Shown here one piece after another: positions 7,355 through 34,591 of a stretch of 35,222 nucleotides of DNA; position 1 is the stretch's first letter; every line of letters starts with the position of its first letter. Origin of the DNA: a virus. Made by a program: the position numbers and the translations under genes. The stretch covers positions 1 to 35,222 of IMG/VR virus record IMGVR_UViG_3300047321_000565. One strand, 5' to 3'. Below the pieces are notes generated by a model that worked only from the letters and a program-made list of their open reading frames with translations, was not told the origin of the DNA and searched no databases.

Positions 7355-7571
7355 GGCACGTCTGCGGGCGGCGCGCGCCCCGCATCGTGACGAGCAGCAC
7401 CTGCACGCCATCGGCGAGCACATCCGCCGCGAATCCGACCACGGCGAATACGATGTGCAGGTGCCAAGCCGCATGCTGTCGGGCCATGTGCAACACACAC
7501 TCGAGACGCTGGGGTATCGGCTGCATGTCGGCCCCGACGTGGCGGTTATTTGCTGGGAGCCGGTGACTTGA
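7332..7571 (+). CDS. Small protein, unknown function
   Basis: About 79 residues from ATG 7332, overlapping the preceding gene by 23 bases. The C-terminal part (EYDVQVPSRMLSGHVQHTL, then ETLGYRLHVGPDVAVICW) resembles a class of small phage proteins with a GEY-strand, helix, GY-strand plan and a terminal ISW/ICW-like strand. I recall that class as orphans often found near structural genes. The stop codon overlaps the proposed TTG start of the large terminase (TTGA). Confidence 0.5.
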   Translation: MICPPANEARLRAARAPHRDEQHLHAIGEHIRRESDHGEYDVQVPSRMLSGHVQHTLETLGYRLHVGPDVAVICWEPVT

Positions 7572-9142
7572 GCCAGGCGCTCAGTGCTGTAGACCGCAGA
7601 AAGGCCCTGCAGGAGCTGGCGCGCCGCCGAGAGCTGACGAGCAAAGCCAAGCTCTTATATGCGCCGACAAAACGCGAAGCCCAGGCGGCTCAGGCGCTGC
7701 GCGGCCTGTGGTTTGACAAACAGCGGGCCTTTTTTGAAAGCCGCGCCACCCGCCGCGTGGCTTTTTGCACGCGCCGCGCCGGCAAAACCATTGGCCTGGC
7801 CCTGTGGTTTGCCGTCGAGCTGTTAGAATATCCAAGCGGCTTGAGCCTGTATTTGGCGCAAACCAACAAAGCCGTAAAATCGTACATGTGGCGTGAGCTG
7901 AAAATGCTCAAAGAACAGTACGACTTGCCCTTCACATTTAACGAATCGAATTTGTGGATTAAGCATGACCGCGGCGGCGGCATGATTGTGCTCTCGGGCG
8001 CCGACAAGGCCGACTACATCGAGAATTTTCGTGGCCCCAAATGGCGCAAGGTGGCCCTCGACGAATCGGCGACGTTTGGCGCTATGATTGAAAACCTCAT
8101 CTTGGAGGTCATCGGCCCCGCCCTCAGAGATGAAGGCGGCCACCTCGTTATGGTGGGCACCGCCGGCCGCAAAAAAGAGGGGCTGTTCTATGAGGCGTGC
8201 CACGGGCTGCGCAAACGCAAAAGCAACGGCAAGCCCGTTTATGAGCTGCATGAATGGACCTTGCAGGACAACCCGCACCTCTCAAGTGAGGCCAAAGACC
8301 TCGATCTCATCCTCGACGAAGAAGGCTTTGGCGGCTACGACGACCCGCGTTTTCAGCGCGAATACCTTAAAATCTGGAACATCGGCGACACCGAGCGCAT
8401 CTTCGCATACGCCCCTGGCAAAAATGATTACGACGAGCTGCCCGAGGGCAACAGCTATCGCTTTTTGCTCAGCATGGACTTTGCCTGGAATGACGACACC
8501 GCCATCGTCGTCGTCGCCTACTCGCCCACAGACGGCACCATCTACTTTCACGACTGCTGGAGCAAAAACCACCAGTATGCCGACGACGTTGCCGCCCGCG
8601 TCATCGACTACCGCCAGAGCTATGGCGCCAAACGCTACGTGGGCGATGTGGGCGGCTATGGCAAAGCCATTACCACGCAGCTGGCCCGCGACTACGGCCT
8701 GCATATCGAGCCTGCCAAGAAAATGGAGAAGCTCAGCTACGTGGAATTTCTTAATTCCGGCTTTATGCGGGGCGACGTGAAAGTACGCCGGGGCAAATGT
8801 GATAAGCTAGCCCAGCAATTTATGACGGTGGGCTGGAATGAGACCCGCACAGATGCCGGCAACCATGAGAAGGACGACTTGTGCTTTGCCGCAACCTACG
8901 GGTGGCGGGCGGCCAAGTTTTCGGGTGCCGGCAAACAAGCCTTGACCCAAGAGGCCAATCAAACCCCCCAGCAACGCGCCATTGCTTTTGCCACCCGCGA
9001 AAAGCTCGAGGCGCTCAGGGCCAAAGACAATGACCGAAACAAGGCATGGTATCTCAAAACAGACGACGGACCATATCCTGACGCTCATCAAGGCGGGCGC
9101 TCGGAATGGCGTGACCTACTTGAAGGTAGCGGATCATTTTGA
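7568..9142 (+). CDS. terL: Terminase large subunit (packaging ATPase and nuclease)
   Basis: The DNA-packaging motor: it cuts concatemers and pumps DNA into the prohead. About 524 residues, a normal size. From TTG 7568, Walker A is CTRRAGKT at residues 67-74 and Walker B is VALDES at about 162-167. The C-terminal RNase H-like nuclease has acidic residues in SMDFAW (about 302), GDVGG (about 359) and DDLCFA (about 436). TTG 7568 is preferred over TTG 7550 because GGGAG lies 8 bases before it and it overlaps the previous stop. No small terminase gene is evident next to it. Its last 113 bases are shared, in another frame, with the gene at 9030. Confidence 0.93.
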   Translation: MSQALSAVDRRKALQELARRRELTSKAKLLYAPTKREAQAAQALRGLWFDKQRAFFESRATRRVAFCTRRAGKTIGLALWFAVELLEYPSGLSLYLAQTNKAVKSYMWRELKMLKEQYDLPFTFNESNLWIKHDRGGGMIVLSGADKADYIENFRGPKWRKVALDESATFGAMIENLILEVIGPALRDEGGHLVMVGTAGRKKEGLFYEACHGLRKRKSNGKPVYELHEWTLQDNPHLSSEAKDLDLILDEEGFGGYDDPRFQREYLKIWNIGDTERIFAYAPGKNDYDELPEGNSYRFLLSMDFAWNDDTAIVVVAYSPTDGTIYFHDCWSKNHQYADDVAARVIDYRQSYGAKRYVGDVGGYGKAITTQLARDYGLHIEPAKKMEKLSYVEFLNSGFMRGDVKVRRGKCDKLAQQFMTVGWNETRTDAGNHEKDDLCFAATYGWRAAKFSGAGKQALTQEANQTPQQRAIAFATREKLEALRAKDNDRNKAWYLKTDDGPYPDAHQGGRSEWRDLLEGSGSF

Positions 9143-29571: not shown

Positions 29572-29871
29572 TCAATCAAAAAGGTGGGCGATGTGCGCCA
29601 AACCTTTGCGCTCGATCTGGCGGACGCGCTCGCGGCTTACCCCGCAAATCACAGCCACCTCGTCGCGCGTTGCGCCCCCTTCATCGGCGACGTCGAGCGA
29701 GCAGCTGTGCGGCACCTCATGCAGTGCCTCGGTGTCGGCGCCAAAGTTAAACAAAATGCCGCCCTGAGCTTTGACGTCGAGAAACAAATGGTGCCGGCAG
29801 GACACAAAGGGGCATGGCCGCACCCCCTGCACGCATTCGGCGCGCGTGCCGGGGCGCTGCGAATCGCGCAC
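29572..29871 (-). CDS. Sigma-70 region 4-like DNA-binding regulator
   Basis: A protein of at least 99 residues with an N-terminal Cys/His motif RPCPFVSCRHHLFLDV and a C-terminal helix-turn-helix GATRDEVAVICGVSRERVRQ, continuing into IERKGLAHI. This matches sigma-70 region 4.2 (VSRERVRQIE). I recall similar proteins in Myxococcota and related groups, including phages. It probably binds promoter -35 elements or RNA polymerase and redirects transcription. The GTG at 29871 is the first ordinary start, but the frame stays open for 31 codons upstream without ATG, GTG or TTG. See findings. Confidence 0.7.
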   Translation of the reverse strand: MRDSQRPGTRAECVQGVRPCPFVSCRHHLFLDVKAQGGILFNFGADTEALHEVPHSCSLDVADEGGATRDEVAVICGVSRERVRQIERKGLAHIAHLFD

Positions 29872-29951: not shown

Positions 29952-30641
29952 TCAGAAAGGAATGTTATCAGGCATCCCTATGCTATCAAAGACCTCGATG
30001 GGCTCGTTGCCGCGCGCCGCCGTGGGCCGCTTGGCGTAAAAATTCGTGAAGGGGTAGCGCGGCTTTTTTTGGTTGGGCATGCGGCGCAAGTAAAAGCGCG
30101 TGCCGCTGAGCACCTCGACGGCGTCGCCCATCGACAGGCTATGGATATGGTCCACCATGTCGAGGGTTGCCTCACCGATGACCTTCTCGCGGGCCTTGAA
30201 GCCTTCCTTGCTGAGCGGCTGCCCGTCGAAGCCATAGAAGGTTTCGTCTTCTTTGCGCTCATACAAGGCAAAGCGTTCGGGCTCGCACGCGCTAAAGATG
30301 CGCGTGACATCTTGCACGCGGCGCGCGTGTCGTTTGCGCACCATCTCTTGATCGGCCACCTGCATGTCGCTCTCTTGAAACGGCAGCGTTAAGTATTCTG
30401 TGTGTGTGCCGACCTGCGTCTCATCGCTGTCTGTCAAAACACGCAGCTTGAGCATCACTTGCTTGTCGCCAAAGTTATTTTTGTGCAGCGTCGCGTATTG
30501 CACCTCGACCTTGTAGGCTATCTCTTGCTCGAGCGGCATATCGCCTGGCGCCACATAGGGGGCATCTGCGTTGCTTGCGGCCTTTTCAAGCGGCTCGATA
30601 TCGGGGTGATGTTCCATCCACTGCTGGCGAAGGGTATTCAT
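29952..30641 (-). CDS. Single-stranded DNA-binding protein (SSB-like) with DNIPF tail
   Basis: A 229-residue protein. The body has a beta-rich N-terminal half (IAYKVEVQYATLHKNNFGDK; VMLKLRVLTDSDETQVGTH) compatible with an OB fold. The key evidence is the C-terminus: IEVFDSIGMPDNIPF ends almost exactly like the bacterial SSB tip (acidic residues then DDIPF), which docks recombination and replication proteins. It lies next to a Sak4-like ATPase. ATG 30641 overlaps the preceding stop as ATGA. DUF669-type phage SSB-like proteins play this role elsewhere. It probably coats ssDNA during recombination. Confidence 0.68.
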   Translation of the reverse strand: MNTLRQQWMEHHPDIEPLEKAASNADAPYVAPGDMPLEQEIAYKVEVQYATLHKNNFGDKQVMLKLRVLTDSDETQVGTHTEYLTLPFQESDMQVADQEMVRKRHARRVQDVTRIFSACEPERFALYERKEDETFYGFDGQPLSKEGFKAREKVIGEATLDMVDHIHSLSMGDAVEVLSGTRFYLRRMPNQKKPRYPFTNFYAKRPTAARGNEPIEVFDSIGMPDNIPF

Positions 30642-30844
30642 TGCGCGGGCTCCAATACGGGCAATACAGCGTTGAGTGCAGCGATTAGATTGTTGGCGTC
30701 GTCGAGTGTGAAATACAGCTGCGTGTTGTCTGTCTGTCCATACACGACCTCAATGCGCACCTGGCCATTGGGCGTCTCGGACACGACAAGATCTGCCGAC
30801 GTGCCTTCCACAACGACACTTTTAAGATTGCGTGGGTTCGTCAT
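30638..30844 (-). CDS. Small acidic/beta protein, unknown function
   Basis: A 68-residue protein from ATG 30844, with strands (LVVSETPNGQVRIEVVYGQT) and a helix (DDANNLIAALNAVLPVL). Its start region uses A8GG as ribosome binding site, and this lies inside the preceding gene. The stop overlaps the SSB-like gene start. Position in the recombination block suggests an accessory role. No family is recognised. Confidence 0.55.
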   Translation of the reverse strand: MTNPRNLKSVVVEGTSADLVVSETPNGQVRIEVVYGQTDNTQLYFTLDDANNLIAALNAVLPVLEPAQ

Positions 30845-31106
30845 TGGGCACCTTTTTTTTAAGTCTATACAAATCGAGAATCGCTGCTTTAGGCCATTGC
30901 TTGGGCCGCTCGTAGCCCATGGCTTCGCTTATCATCTTTGTAGCAGCAACGAGGCGACGACGTGTTGCGCGTGCCCATAGCTCATTTAAAAGTATGCGGC
31001 CATCGACCACCTGCATGTGCCTTTGACTGCTAATGCTTTCTTCAAGGTCGCAAAGCAGTGTGTGGATCGTTCTGTATGCTTGCTCGAGCTTCTTTTTGTT
31101 GCTCAC
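30822..31106 (-). CDS. Small basic helical protein, unknown function
   Basis: A 94-residue Lys/Arg/Leu-rich protein starting at GTG 31106 in a GTGA overlap with the ATPase gene. It is entirely helical in appearance (KKKLEQAYRTIHTLLCDLEE; ELWARATRRRLVAATKMIS). A run of eight A (30853-30860 on the minus strand) lies near its 3' end. Slippage there would fuse it to the next gene. It may bind DNA or the ATPase. Confidence 0.55.
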   Translation of the reverse strand: MSNKKKLEQAYRTIHTLLCDLEESISSQRHMQVVDGRILLNELWARATRRRLVAATKMISEAMGYERPKQWPKAAILDLYRLKKKVPNDEPTQS

Positions 31107-31903
31107 GATTGGCTCCCGTAAGCACGCGCCAACAGCGCACGCAGTGTGATGCTGCCGTCTTCGGTCGGCTGCAAAACATTTTGCGCACGGCTTTTGGCCT
31201 CATGGCGCATCGACGCTGTGGTGTGCGTGAGGTAGTGCACCTCGCCGCGTATGCGTTTGACCTGACGCTGCAAAACAAAGCTCGCGTTGTCGATCCACGG
31301 TTGCTTGATGCCTTTGACCAGATCGATGGTCAGCTGTGCGCGCTCGCCGCCAATGGCTTTGGCACTAGCCGCAAGTGCCGCCTCGGGCTTCTCGCCGGGG
31401 CCTTGCGAGCTTTTGACCTGAGCGTTGCCAATGACCGTCACGTTCGTCAGCTTGGAGAAGGCGTAAAACAATTTACGACCCTCAGCCGCCACCCGCCCCC
31501 AGCCCTGCTGATCAGCGGGCTTAATCATCTCGAGGATAAGATTCTGCGGGTGCGCCAAATCGACAACGACCACTTTGATAGAGCCGTCCTTAAACAAACC
31601 TTCAGCCTGCTTGAGCTTTTGCTCGAGCATCTGACAATACGCCGGCCAGGTTGGAATGCCGGTCATGTCGAGCACCGAGCCAGGTACAAGACCCGCGCTC
31701 ACAGCCCCCATCACACCCTCGCTGTCGCCCTGGATTAAAAGTACATCTTGGCAGATGACCCGTTCGCCGGCAGGGATTTTATCGCCCGCGAATTTAGACG
31801 CTGAGATGCTGAAGGTTGTTTTGCCTGTGCCCCCTGAGCCGACAACCAACAGGCGGCGGTTGGCATTGTTGATGGCTTGATTGGCAGACTGGAAAATGCT
31901 CAT
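31103..31903 (-). CDS. Sak4-like RecA-fold ATPase (single-strand annealing)
   Basis: A 266-residue AAA/RecA-fold ATPase. Walker A is GSGGTGKT at residues 22-29, and Walker B is VVVVD ending at Asp115. This resembles the Sak4/AAA_24 group of phage recombinases, which act with an SSB-like partner to anneal single strands. ATG 31903 is chosen because GGAG lies 6 bases before it; the upstream extension looks like noise. The inverted repeat at 31915-31942 lies just ahead. It probably works with the SSB-like and Cas4-like products nearby. Confidence 0.75.
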   Translation of the reverse strand: MSIFQSANQAINNANRRLLVVGSGGTGKTTFSISASKFAGDKIPAGERVICQDVLLIQGDSEGVMGAVSAGLVPGSVLDMTGIPTWPAYCQMLEQKLKQAEGLFKDGSIKVVVVDLAHPQNLILEMIKPADQQGWGRVAAEGRKLFYAFSKLTNVTVIGNAQVKSSQGPGEKPEAALAASAKAIGGERAQLTIDLVKGIKQPWIDNASFVLQRQVKRIRGEVHYLTHTTASMRHEAKSRAQNVLQPTEDGSITLRALLARAYGSQS

Positions 31904-31914
31904 GTAAAACTCCG

Positions 31915-31942
31915 GTACAAGGTGATGCAATCGTGTTTGTAC
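31915..31942 (-). promoter_or_regulatory. Inverted repeat ahead of the ATPase gene
   Basis: GTACAA at 31915-31920 and TTGTAC at 31937-31942 form a 6-bp dyad separated by 16 bases, just upstream of the ATPase gene. It may be a regulator binding site or a weak leader hairpin. The statistical support is low because the stem is short. Confidence 0.25.
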
Positions 31943-32158: not shown

Positions 32159-32506
32159 CTAGTGTCGCCTATTGATGTAGACGCCATCCTTCCACATCAA
32201 ATACATATTGCAGCTCGGGTTACACGTTCGCTTGGCCTCCCATTGCTCGTCTGTGCGCCACCGTCCGCTTGTGTAGCGCCGCCCAAAGACGCCGCCGCAC
32301 CACAGGCATTGCTTATGCTCGTCGTCGGTTTCGACGGGCTCAGGTTCGGCCCACGTCTCGTAGCTTAGGATGCGCCGAATGGTTTTGGGGTGGATCTGAT
32401 ATTTGCGTGCCTCGGCCGCCACATCACACTTGTCGCCGAGCTGCCGCAGCCTATCGACGACGCGCTGTGATAGCTTGGCGCCGCTCATCGGTTTTTGTTT
32501 ACCCAT
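32159..32506 (-). CDS. Helix-turn-helix protein with C-terminal zinc ribbon
   Basis: A 115-residue protein from ATG 32506. The frame is open further upstream, but that part overlaps the endonuclease gene and looks hydrophobic and noisy. The N-terminal half contains KLSQRVVDRLRQLGDKCDVA, then ARKYQIHPKTIRRIL, a helix-turn-helix plan. The C-terminal half has CLWCGGVFG and CNPSC, a likely four-Cys zinc ribbon. It probably binds DNA. It may have been brought in together with the adjacent homing endonuclease. Confidence 0.6.
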   Translation of the reverse strand: MGKQKPMSGAKLSQRVVDRLRQLGDKCDVAAEARKYQIHPKTIRRILSYETWAEPEPVETDDEHKQCLWCGGVFGRRYTSGRWRTDEQWEAKRTCNPSCNMYLMWKDGVYINRRH

Positions 32507-32972
32507 TCGGAAAATTCTGGAACGCAGCTGGACCATATAGATGGCGAGCAGCGGCATCGTAAGCGCGAGCAGCAGCGACAGGGTCATTAAAATTGCCCAG
32601 GTAACGGCGAGACTTGGCAAACATAATAACTGCGGCATAGGTCAAACCGTTTGGTTGCGCCTGCACGCCTTTGTACCCGAAGCGATTGCGGCTTGGCTTG
32701 TTTTGGGTATTCGCCCCACGGTCTACAGCGCGCAGATTGAGCCGTTGATTATTTAGCTTATCGCCGTCGATATGGTCTACCTCGAACCCAGCCGCAGTGG
32801 GGCAAACCTCCCGGTGCATGTAGATACGTGGCCCGGTTTTATTTTGCCCGGCCAGCCATGTGGTACGGCCGGCATAGCCATGGCTAAACCCCCACCTATG
32901 CAAAGCAAGGGCCGCATAATCTTCGTCATCGACGCGAGCTATCCTGCCTTGCGTCAGCTCAATTTCTCTCAC
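32499..32972 (-). CDS. HNH homing endonuclease with C-terminal AP2 domain
   Basis: A 157-residue protein starting at GTG 32972 in a GTGA overlap with the Cas4-like gene. The HNH core is YMHREVCPTAAG, then FEVDHIDGDKLNNQRLNLR with the DHIDGDxLNNxxxNLR signature, then N-rich NTQNKPS. The C-terminal AP2-type domain holds GYKGVQAQPNGLTYAAVI and RRYLGNFNDPVAAARAYD. This is a well-known mobile phage endonuclease layout. It interrupts an otherwise tight block of recombination genes and ends inside the start region of the following gene. Confidence 0.85.
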   Translation of the reverse strand: MREIELTQGRIARVDDEDYAALALHRWGFSHGYAGRTTWLAGQNKTGPRIYMHREVCPTAAGFEVDHIDGDKLNNQRLNLRAVDRGANTQNKPSRNRFGYKGVQAQPNGLTYAAVIMFAKSRRYLGNFNDPVAAARAYDAAARHLYGPAAFQNFPNG

Positions 32973-33868
32973 GTTTGATCACACCCATCGTTTAAGTGGG
33001 GGCAGCGCATGCCTCTAAAATCCACGCAATGCGCGCGGTTCGGTATGTCCTGCAGCACATTGAGCGCCCCCTGTTTGACCATGCCCGCCATCGTTTCGGG
33101 CCGTGTCATGCTGGAGTAACACAGGATTGCGCCAAAATCATCGGGTTTGACGATGCGCTCACGCCGGCGCGCCTGTTTGTAGATGACGTCGAAGATAATG
33201 CCCATGCACGGCTCATCGGGATGCTCGAGATTGTACGCGGTTGGATACCACAGCGCCTGATTGCCCTCACGAAAGGGCGCATCTGAACCCGGTTGGCTTG
33301 CCGTTTTGTAATCGATGATATAGCGCCCCGGCACCAGCTCGCCCTTCAGACTGGGGCGGCGTCTATAAATTTCTTCGAGGTTTTCATCGTGGATATCCAC
33401 AACCATATCGAGGGCAGCCGTCACCATACGCCCATACAGACCCGTAATCAGCTCACAACTACGTGCCGAGTGCGGCAACTTGTACTCGACGCGCAGCGTC
33501 GTGCCCCAAAAGCCTTTGCGGTGCAGGCGCGCGTACCCCTTGAACAGATGGATGGCCTCGACAACGTTCGGGTTGTCGTGGGCCAGATACATGCCCTCGA
33601 GCGTGGGGTCTGCGGTCTGCCAGGCCTCATGCAGCCAGTGGTAGATGGAGCCAACAGCCAAAGCGTGCAGGCTTGGCGGAATCGGCCACCGCTCGGCCCG
33701 AGCAAGCTGCGAGCGCTCGCGTGAGAGCCTGGCTTTGCGGCCGCAGCTGGCGGCCTGGGCATAAAAGCTTGCGCCCTCGCCCGAGCCGCCGGTGTAGCAC
33801 GCAGCCCGGCACGCCTCTAAAAAAGCAGCCTTTAACGGCTCATTCTCGCTCATCACAAAAGATGCCAT
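32969..33868 (-). CDS. Cas4-like PD-(D/E)XK nuclease with Fe-S-type cysteines
   Basis: About 299 residues. The nuclease core shows Asp154 (ALDMVVDIH), Asp186-Tyr187-Lys188 (YIIDYK), and Gln204/Tyr208 (QALWY), the QxxxY motif of the RecB/Cas4 group. One Cys lies at 42 (AASCGRKA) and three at 281, 289 and 296 (HCVDFRGMRC-type ending), the one-plus-three arrangement that holds a 4Fe-4S cluster in Cas4, Dna2 and AddB. It probably resects DNA ends for recombination. ATG 33868 is preferred to TTG 33895. It follows the RuvC gene within the same block. Confidence 0.8.
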   Translation of the reverse strand: MASFVMSENEPLKAAFLEACRAACYTGGSGEGASFYAQAASCGRKARLSRERSQLARAERWPIPPSLHALAVGSIYHWLHEAWQTADPTLEGMYLAHDNPNVVEAIHLFKGYARLHRKGFWGTTLRVEYKLPHSARSCELITGLYGRMVTAALDMVVDIHDENLEEIYRRRPSLKGELVPGRYIIDYKTASQPGSDAPFREGNQALWYPTAYNLEHPDEPCMGIIFDVIYKQARRRERIVKPDDFGAILCYSSMTRPETMAGMVKQGALNVLQDIPNRAHCVDFRGMRCPHLNDGCDQT

Positions 33869-33898
33869 ATCTGCTTTGCCCCCGCTGAGGAGCAAAAA

Positions 33899-34591
33899 CT
33901 AACAGGGTTGTGCTTCGTGTACATCGCCCGATGCGTCATGCTCTGGCGCATTGGGCACAAAATCGTACAGGCGGCGTGTAAGGGCCGAATCCATGCCCAA
34001 AAGGGCGTGTCCGGTGGCGTCGGCGAGGTGTTCGCGCTGGCCGGCTGGGAAGTAGTCGAGCAGGGTTTTGCAGCCGGTGACGATATCGCCGACGGAGGCG
34101 ATGACGGCCTCTTTTTTGCCGACGTGTTTGCCGGTGACGAGCTTTTTCATCGCTTGGGGCGTAAAGCTCAAAAGCCAGGCGCCGTGGCTGCGCACCATGC
34201 CCGAGATGAGCCCATAGACGAGCGCCGTCTTCCAGCCCGAGCTATTGGGGGCGCCAAAAGGGCGGTACAGCTCCATGGCCACCACAGTCGGCTGCCAGCG
34301 CTCGAGGTAGGCCTTGAGGCTCTGGCGCATAATCTCGATGCGCCGGTCATCGTCGGTCTCGCCCGGATTGTGGGTCATGCGCTGCTTTGAGGTGCGCATC
34401 AACTCGAGCGCCAAGCAGCGGGGGTTGGGCTTTGCAATCTCGACCTCGATGACCGACACGCCGCAAAAGGCGATGCCAGGGTCGATGCCCATGACCCGCA
34501 CAAAGCCAGGCTCCGGCCCGCGCTCGGTGCGCGGCAGGCGATGCTTGTCGTGTTCGCTCAAATACTTGGGCCTGTTTGGATCTGCCTTCAT
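33899..34591 (-). CDS. ruvC-like: RuvC-like Holliday junction resolvase
   Basis: A 230-residue RNase H-fold resolvase. GIDPG with Asp37, VVAMEL with Glu107, KHVGKKEAV at about 155-163, and EHLADATGHAL with Glu187/Asp191 match the four acidic motifs and basic loop of RuvC. It cuts Holliday junctions made by recombination or branched DNA before packaging. ATG 34591 lies 3 bases after the preceding stop. The N-terminal 30 residues are a basic, Pro-rich extension not usual in bacterial RuvC. Confidence 0.82.
   Translation of the reverse strand: MKADPNRPKYLSEHDKHRLPRTERGPEPGFVRVMGIDPGIAFCGVSVIEVEIAKPNPRCLALELMRTSKQRMTHNPGETDDDRRIEIMRQSLKAYLERWQPTVVAMELYRPFGAPNSSGWKTALVYGLISGMVRSHGAWLLSFTPQAMKKLVTGKHVGKKEAVIASVGDIVTGCKTLLDYFPAGQREHLADATGHALLGMDSALTRRLYDFVPNAPEHDASGDVHEAQPC

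Follow-up and report, generated by a model that had tools for sequence, protein, structure and literature searches.

The window, meaning the whole stretch of DNA analyzed here, corresponds to the 35,222-base record of an uncultivated virus. On its minus strand lies a recombination operon in the order RuvC, PD-(D/E)XK exonuclease-like protein, HNH endonuclease, small ORFs, Sak4-like ATPase, a 94-aa protein, a 68-aa protein, and an SSB-like protein, with the following features:

33899-34591, minus strand: RuvC-like Holliday junction resolvase (PF02075, 1.1e-10; phrog_159, 2.7e-20)
32969-33895, minus strand: PD-(D/E)XK exonuclease-like protein (phrog_1218 exonuclease, 0.005; weak PDDEXK_1 match)
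32499-32972, minus strand: HNH endonuclease with a weak AP2 match, upstream of sak4
31103-31930, minus strand: Sak4-like RecA-core ATPase with the Walker A motif GSGGTGKTT (phrog_124 Sak4, 9.8e-6)
30822-31106, minus strand: 94-aa unknown protein, overlapping its neighbors on both sides
30638-30844, minus strand: 68-aa unknown protein, overlapping the start of the SSB-like gene by ATGA
29952-30641, minus strand: predicted OB-fold SSB (DUF669-like), 229 aa (from the ORF, a homologue, an AF2 model, and Foldseek)
29955-29972, minus strand: SSB-Ct-like tip PDNIPF, the last six residues, with the stop codon next (from the translation)

The SSB-like gene and sak4 share an overlapping operon with two small genes between them, the successive overlaps being 4, 23, and 4 bases, with GTGA and ATGA junctions. 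These overlaps suggest translational coupling, which is probable for the ATGA overlap between the 68-aa gene and the SSB-like gene. No family match was found for the 94-aa protein in PHROGs or Pfam, and the PHROG matches of the 68-aa protein are weak and to function-unknown families only. The Sak4-like ATPase, the presumed partner of the SSB-like protein, has an AAA_24 match (5e-5) under the curated cut-off, and its 46–47% identical homologue in a sister phage passes that cut-off. The sister phage also carries counterparts of the exonuclease-like protein (41% identical) and of the HNH endonuclease (44% identical; L173:3461-3973), the latter at the equivalent place upstream of sak4; this HNH/AP2 protein is likely a homing endonuclease. 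A further gene just downstream of the SSB-like one (29572-29871, minus strand) encodes 99 aa that include a sigma-70 region 4 domain (PF04545, 2.6e-7, above the cut-off); its product is possibly a small phage transcription factor. Elsewhere in the window, the terminase (7550-9142, plus strand) shows a distant likeness to those of HTVC010P-type pelagiphages; its matches among phage records were all distant (21–30% identity). For the head proteins there is a weak resemblance to models of podovirus portals and of SU10-type capsids.

Translation of the SSB-like ORF, which begins with ATG, confirmed the bacterial-SSB-like DNIPF tip reported in the initial annotation, the last residues of the protein being ...EPIEVFDSIGMPDNIPF, with MPDNIPF at the very end. 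This end carries the D-D-x-P-F tip feature of the bacterial type, with flanks that are only modestly acidic; the preceding stretch, described earlier as acidic, is indeed so, but mildly, with 3 acidic residues among the last 16. Among the 223 window ORFs of at least 60 aa, no other ends in PF. In a background set of 2518 non-redundant ORFs of at least 100 aa from related phage loci, spurious ORFs included, a PF end was found in 15 (0.6%) and the pattern [DEN]x?[ILVMA]PF in 8 (0.3%), the latter comprising three DUF669-type proteins, one classical SSB, three small proteins that are OB/ssDNA-binding-like by eye, and one non-SSB. Thus, given these frequencies and carriers, the tip is both rare and informative. 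Small unannotated phage proteins with VPF or IPF after acidic residues and an OB/ssDNA-binding-like look were seen at L119:1095-1403, L077:9037-9375, and L024:8095-8496.

Direct searches with the SSB-like protein returned nothing from phage records (tblastn), IMG/VR, or GTDB genomes, and the portal, major capsid, and Sak4 queries, each used alone, returned nothing from phage records; relatives were reached via terminase profiles (A1, A2). The window terminase has relatives on at least 394 IMG/VR stretches (loci including L089-L168), the nearest being the 45-kb IMGVR_UViG_3300034069_000999 (G032/L089), with a terminase 52% identical to that of the window. One true homologue of the SSB-like protein was found, namely a 214-aa protein of the sister phage (L171:1459-2103; E 7.5e-24), with 30% identity across the whole OB region. 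It is encoded directly downstream of the Sak4 homologue, in a neighborhood where the exonuclease and HNH genes are conserved too, and ends in STPVYKHEDGDAPF, with the acidic PF tip HEDGDAPF. The linker ahead of the tip is unalignable between the two proteins, yet the acidic PF tip is kept; tail conservation in homologues had been named as support in the initial annotation, and it is now seen in one close homologue.

Profile scans with the two-sequence alignment recovered the same sister protein only, with no further homologue. No homologue of the SSB-like protein was found in records whose terminase is less similar (≤36% identity), except for a short match in G030 (29 residues, 2.6e-4, 15.5 bits), or in L174-L176, in which Sak4 relatives are present. 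A gene upstream of Sak4 in L174-L176, with a DEMTDIPV end, was considered as an SSB candidate and rejected, being a glycosyl hydrolase 108 endolysin. In the sister phage, the gene that directly follows the SSB gene downstream is for a Dam-type N6-adenine methyltransferase (L172:5924-6532, minus strand); none was seen at the corresponding place in the window. Terminase large subunits with intein-like (Hint/Intein_splicing) stretches after about residue 415 were encountered at L009:1665-3797 and L010:1021-3408.

Comparison of protein ends indicates that the tip is common in the Sak4-adjacent/DUF669-type class of SSBs, but not universal. In the five terminase-related phages searched that have a strong Sak4 match, the next gene always belongs to one family of 138–174 aa, one member of which passes the Pfam DUF669 cut-off; the last residues are MPF or VPF in four of the five proteins and LRF in the fifth. 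In L188, the Sak4-like ATPase is followed by a classical SSB with a DDDIPF end. In a combined alignment, 13 of 14 DUF669-type proteins end in PF, and the most conserved columns are the P and F of the tip, together with a G and a Y, while HK620-type SSBs end in PF in four of eight cases and in F in seven of eight. Some Sak4-adjacent SSBs have no tip, including N4 gp45, which adjoins Sak4 (LFGKK end), and the Shewanella 3/49 protein (GDDWE end). These tipless proteins, together with the modest acidity of the tail, would suit a chance or neutral C-terminus without a docking role in an SSB that works without its tip. Such neutrality is improbable, however, because an end so infrequent in the background is shared by the window protein and a homologue only 30% identical to it, despite the unalignable linker, and by nearly all of the DUF669-type proteins.

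The SSB-like protein has no match in Pfam up to E 1, hence none to PF00436 or PF05037, no meaningful match in PHROGs, and none among PDB sequences. The DUF669 (PF05037) profile leaves the sister homologue unmatched too, and the HK620 SSB is likewise missed by it. Because neither profile matches, the protein cannot be filed under Pfam DUF669 or PF00436; the lack of a Pfam SSB domain agrees with the initial description of a protein unlike a classic bacterial SSB. Profile-profile alignment by hhalign to DUF669-type and HK620-type sets was not significant (P 0.021, 0.028, and 0.047), but it has little power, a control between two DUF669-type sets having failed as well. With the HK620 SSB, the P of 0.028 came from the predicted first strands alone.

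With a single sequence, AlphaFold was uninformative (pLDDT 39), and with one homologue added (two sequences) the best model reached a pLDDT of 69 and a pTM of 0.68. In this AF2 model, strands span residues 41-54, 60-69, 76-85, 182-189, and 198-204, and helices span residues 98-119 and 145-167. The resulting b1-b2-b3-a-a-b4-b5 order supports a predicted OB-like fold in which a long helical insertion separates strands 3 and 4; an OB fold was among the supporting observations named in the initial annotation. Residues 205-229 were modeled with low confidence and are probably disordered, and the tip lies at the end of this segment—an arrangement consistent with the exposed tail that was also named there as support.

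A Foldseek search of a viral library gave 25 matches below 1e-3. Ranks 2-4, 15, and 19 were taken by DUF669 proteins, and matches to such proteins had E values of 6.6e-5 to 7.4e-5, prob 1.0, and TM 0.3–0.5; among the best 50 viral matches, all function-carrying names were DUF669/SSB, the others being uncharacterized or unnamed. Against the PDB, no match fell below 1e-3, and the best was PrgE (4e-3, prob 0.99), an atypical OB-fold protein that binds ssDNA and dsDNA (PMC11137577), followed by weaker matches to Endonuclease V and many bacterial SSBs. Given the low TM-scores, these matches support the class of fold without supporting close relatedness. Kinship to DUF669, a family that the initial annotation had named for a profile search, is supported in a structural sense, through the matches to DUF669 proteins. 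The low TM-scores, the Endonuclease V matches, the long helical insertion, and the lack of a family match could also be accommodated if the protein were some other OB/beta-barrel product of the recombination operon, such as an accessory protein or mediator of Sak4. That the protein is not an SSB nevertheless seems unlikely: its named viral structural matches are DUF669/SSB, it sits where the Sak4 module has its SSB, and no Pfam SSB domain was found among the window ORFs scanned, which were a subset.

An experimental precedent is available in HK620, whose SSB adjoins sak4 and ends in NDYPPF; removal of these six residues lowers recombineering tenfold. Without them Sak4 does not bind DNA coated by the SSB, and most of the stimulation of recombineering also depends on them (PMC5928155). 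As many as 80% of sak4 genes lie next to an ssb gene (PMC5928155). As in the window, the gene for the HK620 SSB (HkaK, NP_112044) belongs to a recombination operon and has a Sak4-like gene beside it; the HK620 protein is of OB type and was assigned to DUF669 by its authors (PMC5928155), the window protein being OB-like by model, and the two tips, NDYPPF and PDNIPF, are both bacterial-SSB-like. The proteins differ in length (195 versus 229 aa) and have no detectable sequence similarity, and in the window two small genes separate sak4 from the SSB-like gene.

The DUF669 (PF05037) SSBs, such as Lactobacillus phage Lc-Nu gp30, Streptococcus phage DT1 gp33, and the Sak4-adjacent proteins of L180-L184, share with the window protein the order of strands, with helices between strands 3 and 4, a disordered linker, and a terminal PF. 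Their genes often lie beside Sak4 or helicase/primase genes, and they are its best named Foldseek neighbors; the window protein differs in leaving the PF05037 model unmatched and in its longer helical insertion. The closest solved structure by Foldseek, that of PrgE from plasmid pCF10 (PDB 8s4s, 8s4t), likewise belongs to an atypical OB-fold DNA-binding protein, but PrgE functions in plasmid conjugation and, at E 4e-3 and TM below 0.5, is no more than a distant relative. The bacterial SSB (PF00436) is alike in the expected OB fold and the C-terminal tip, whereas its domain layout is different and its profile is unmatched. Judged from the model and by analogy, the SSB-like protein appears to resemble a DUF669 SSB structurally and to work like one.

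Overall, the SSB-like gene product is likely a Sak4-partnered OB-fold phage SSB. It would be the phage's own SSB, with a DUF669-like OB architecture that has diverged past the reach of current family models, and would probably coat ssDNA during phage replication and recombination. By analogy with HK620, the flexible C-terminus with its DNIPF tip would most likely recruit or stimulate the co-encoded Sak4-like annealase, the tip thereby bringing Sak4 to single-stranded phage DNA. This recruitment is proposed because of the HK620 precedent and the matching layout of the gene pair in the window, and it is reasonably probable that Sak4 is the main partner of the tip. The tip may in addition contact partners of the host SSB.

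A chiefly host-directed tip, docking partners of the host SSB (e.g., RecO, PriA, RecQ, or the polymerase chi subunit) and so recruiting or sequestering them, is a possible but less favored explanation, and one not exclusive of Sak4 recruitment. DNIPF is nearer to the bacterial DDIPF than is the NDYPPF of HK620, and the bacterial tip binds many partners (PMC5928155); on the other hand, a candidate partner closer at hand, with experimental precedent, is the Sak4-like protein encoded alongside, and the tip of the sister protein, DGDAPF, departs further from the bacterial consensus. The initial annotation had put forward use of, or competition for, host SSB partners; as the leading mechanism this gives way to the phage's Sak4, to which the operon context and the HK620 precedent point first. 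It is doubtful that the protein represents a separate phage SSB family, characterized by the long helical insertion, that gained its SSB-Ct tip independently of DUF669, with the tip serving both its own Sak4 and host repair proteins; if this were true, phage and host SSBs would share one docking code.

The sequence is new and unusual, and the pairing of sak4 with a gene for a tipped SSB is already known. With the Sak4-partnered SSB as the preferred reading, this pair reaches into a large group of uncultivated phages whose SSB escapes current family models. In these sets, a PF tip serves well to flag ssDNA-binding proteins where phage genomes lack annotation, and combining position as the gene after sak4 with a PF end could reveal hidden SSBs.
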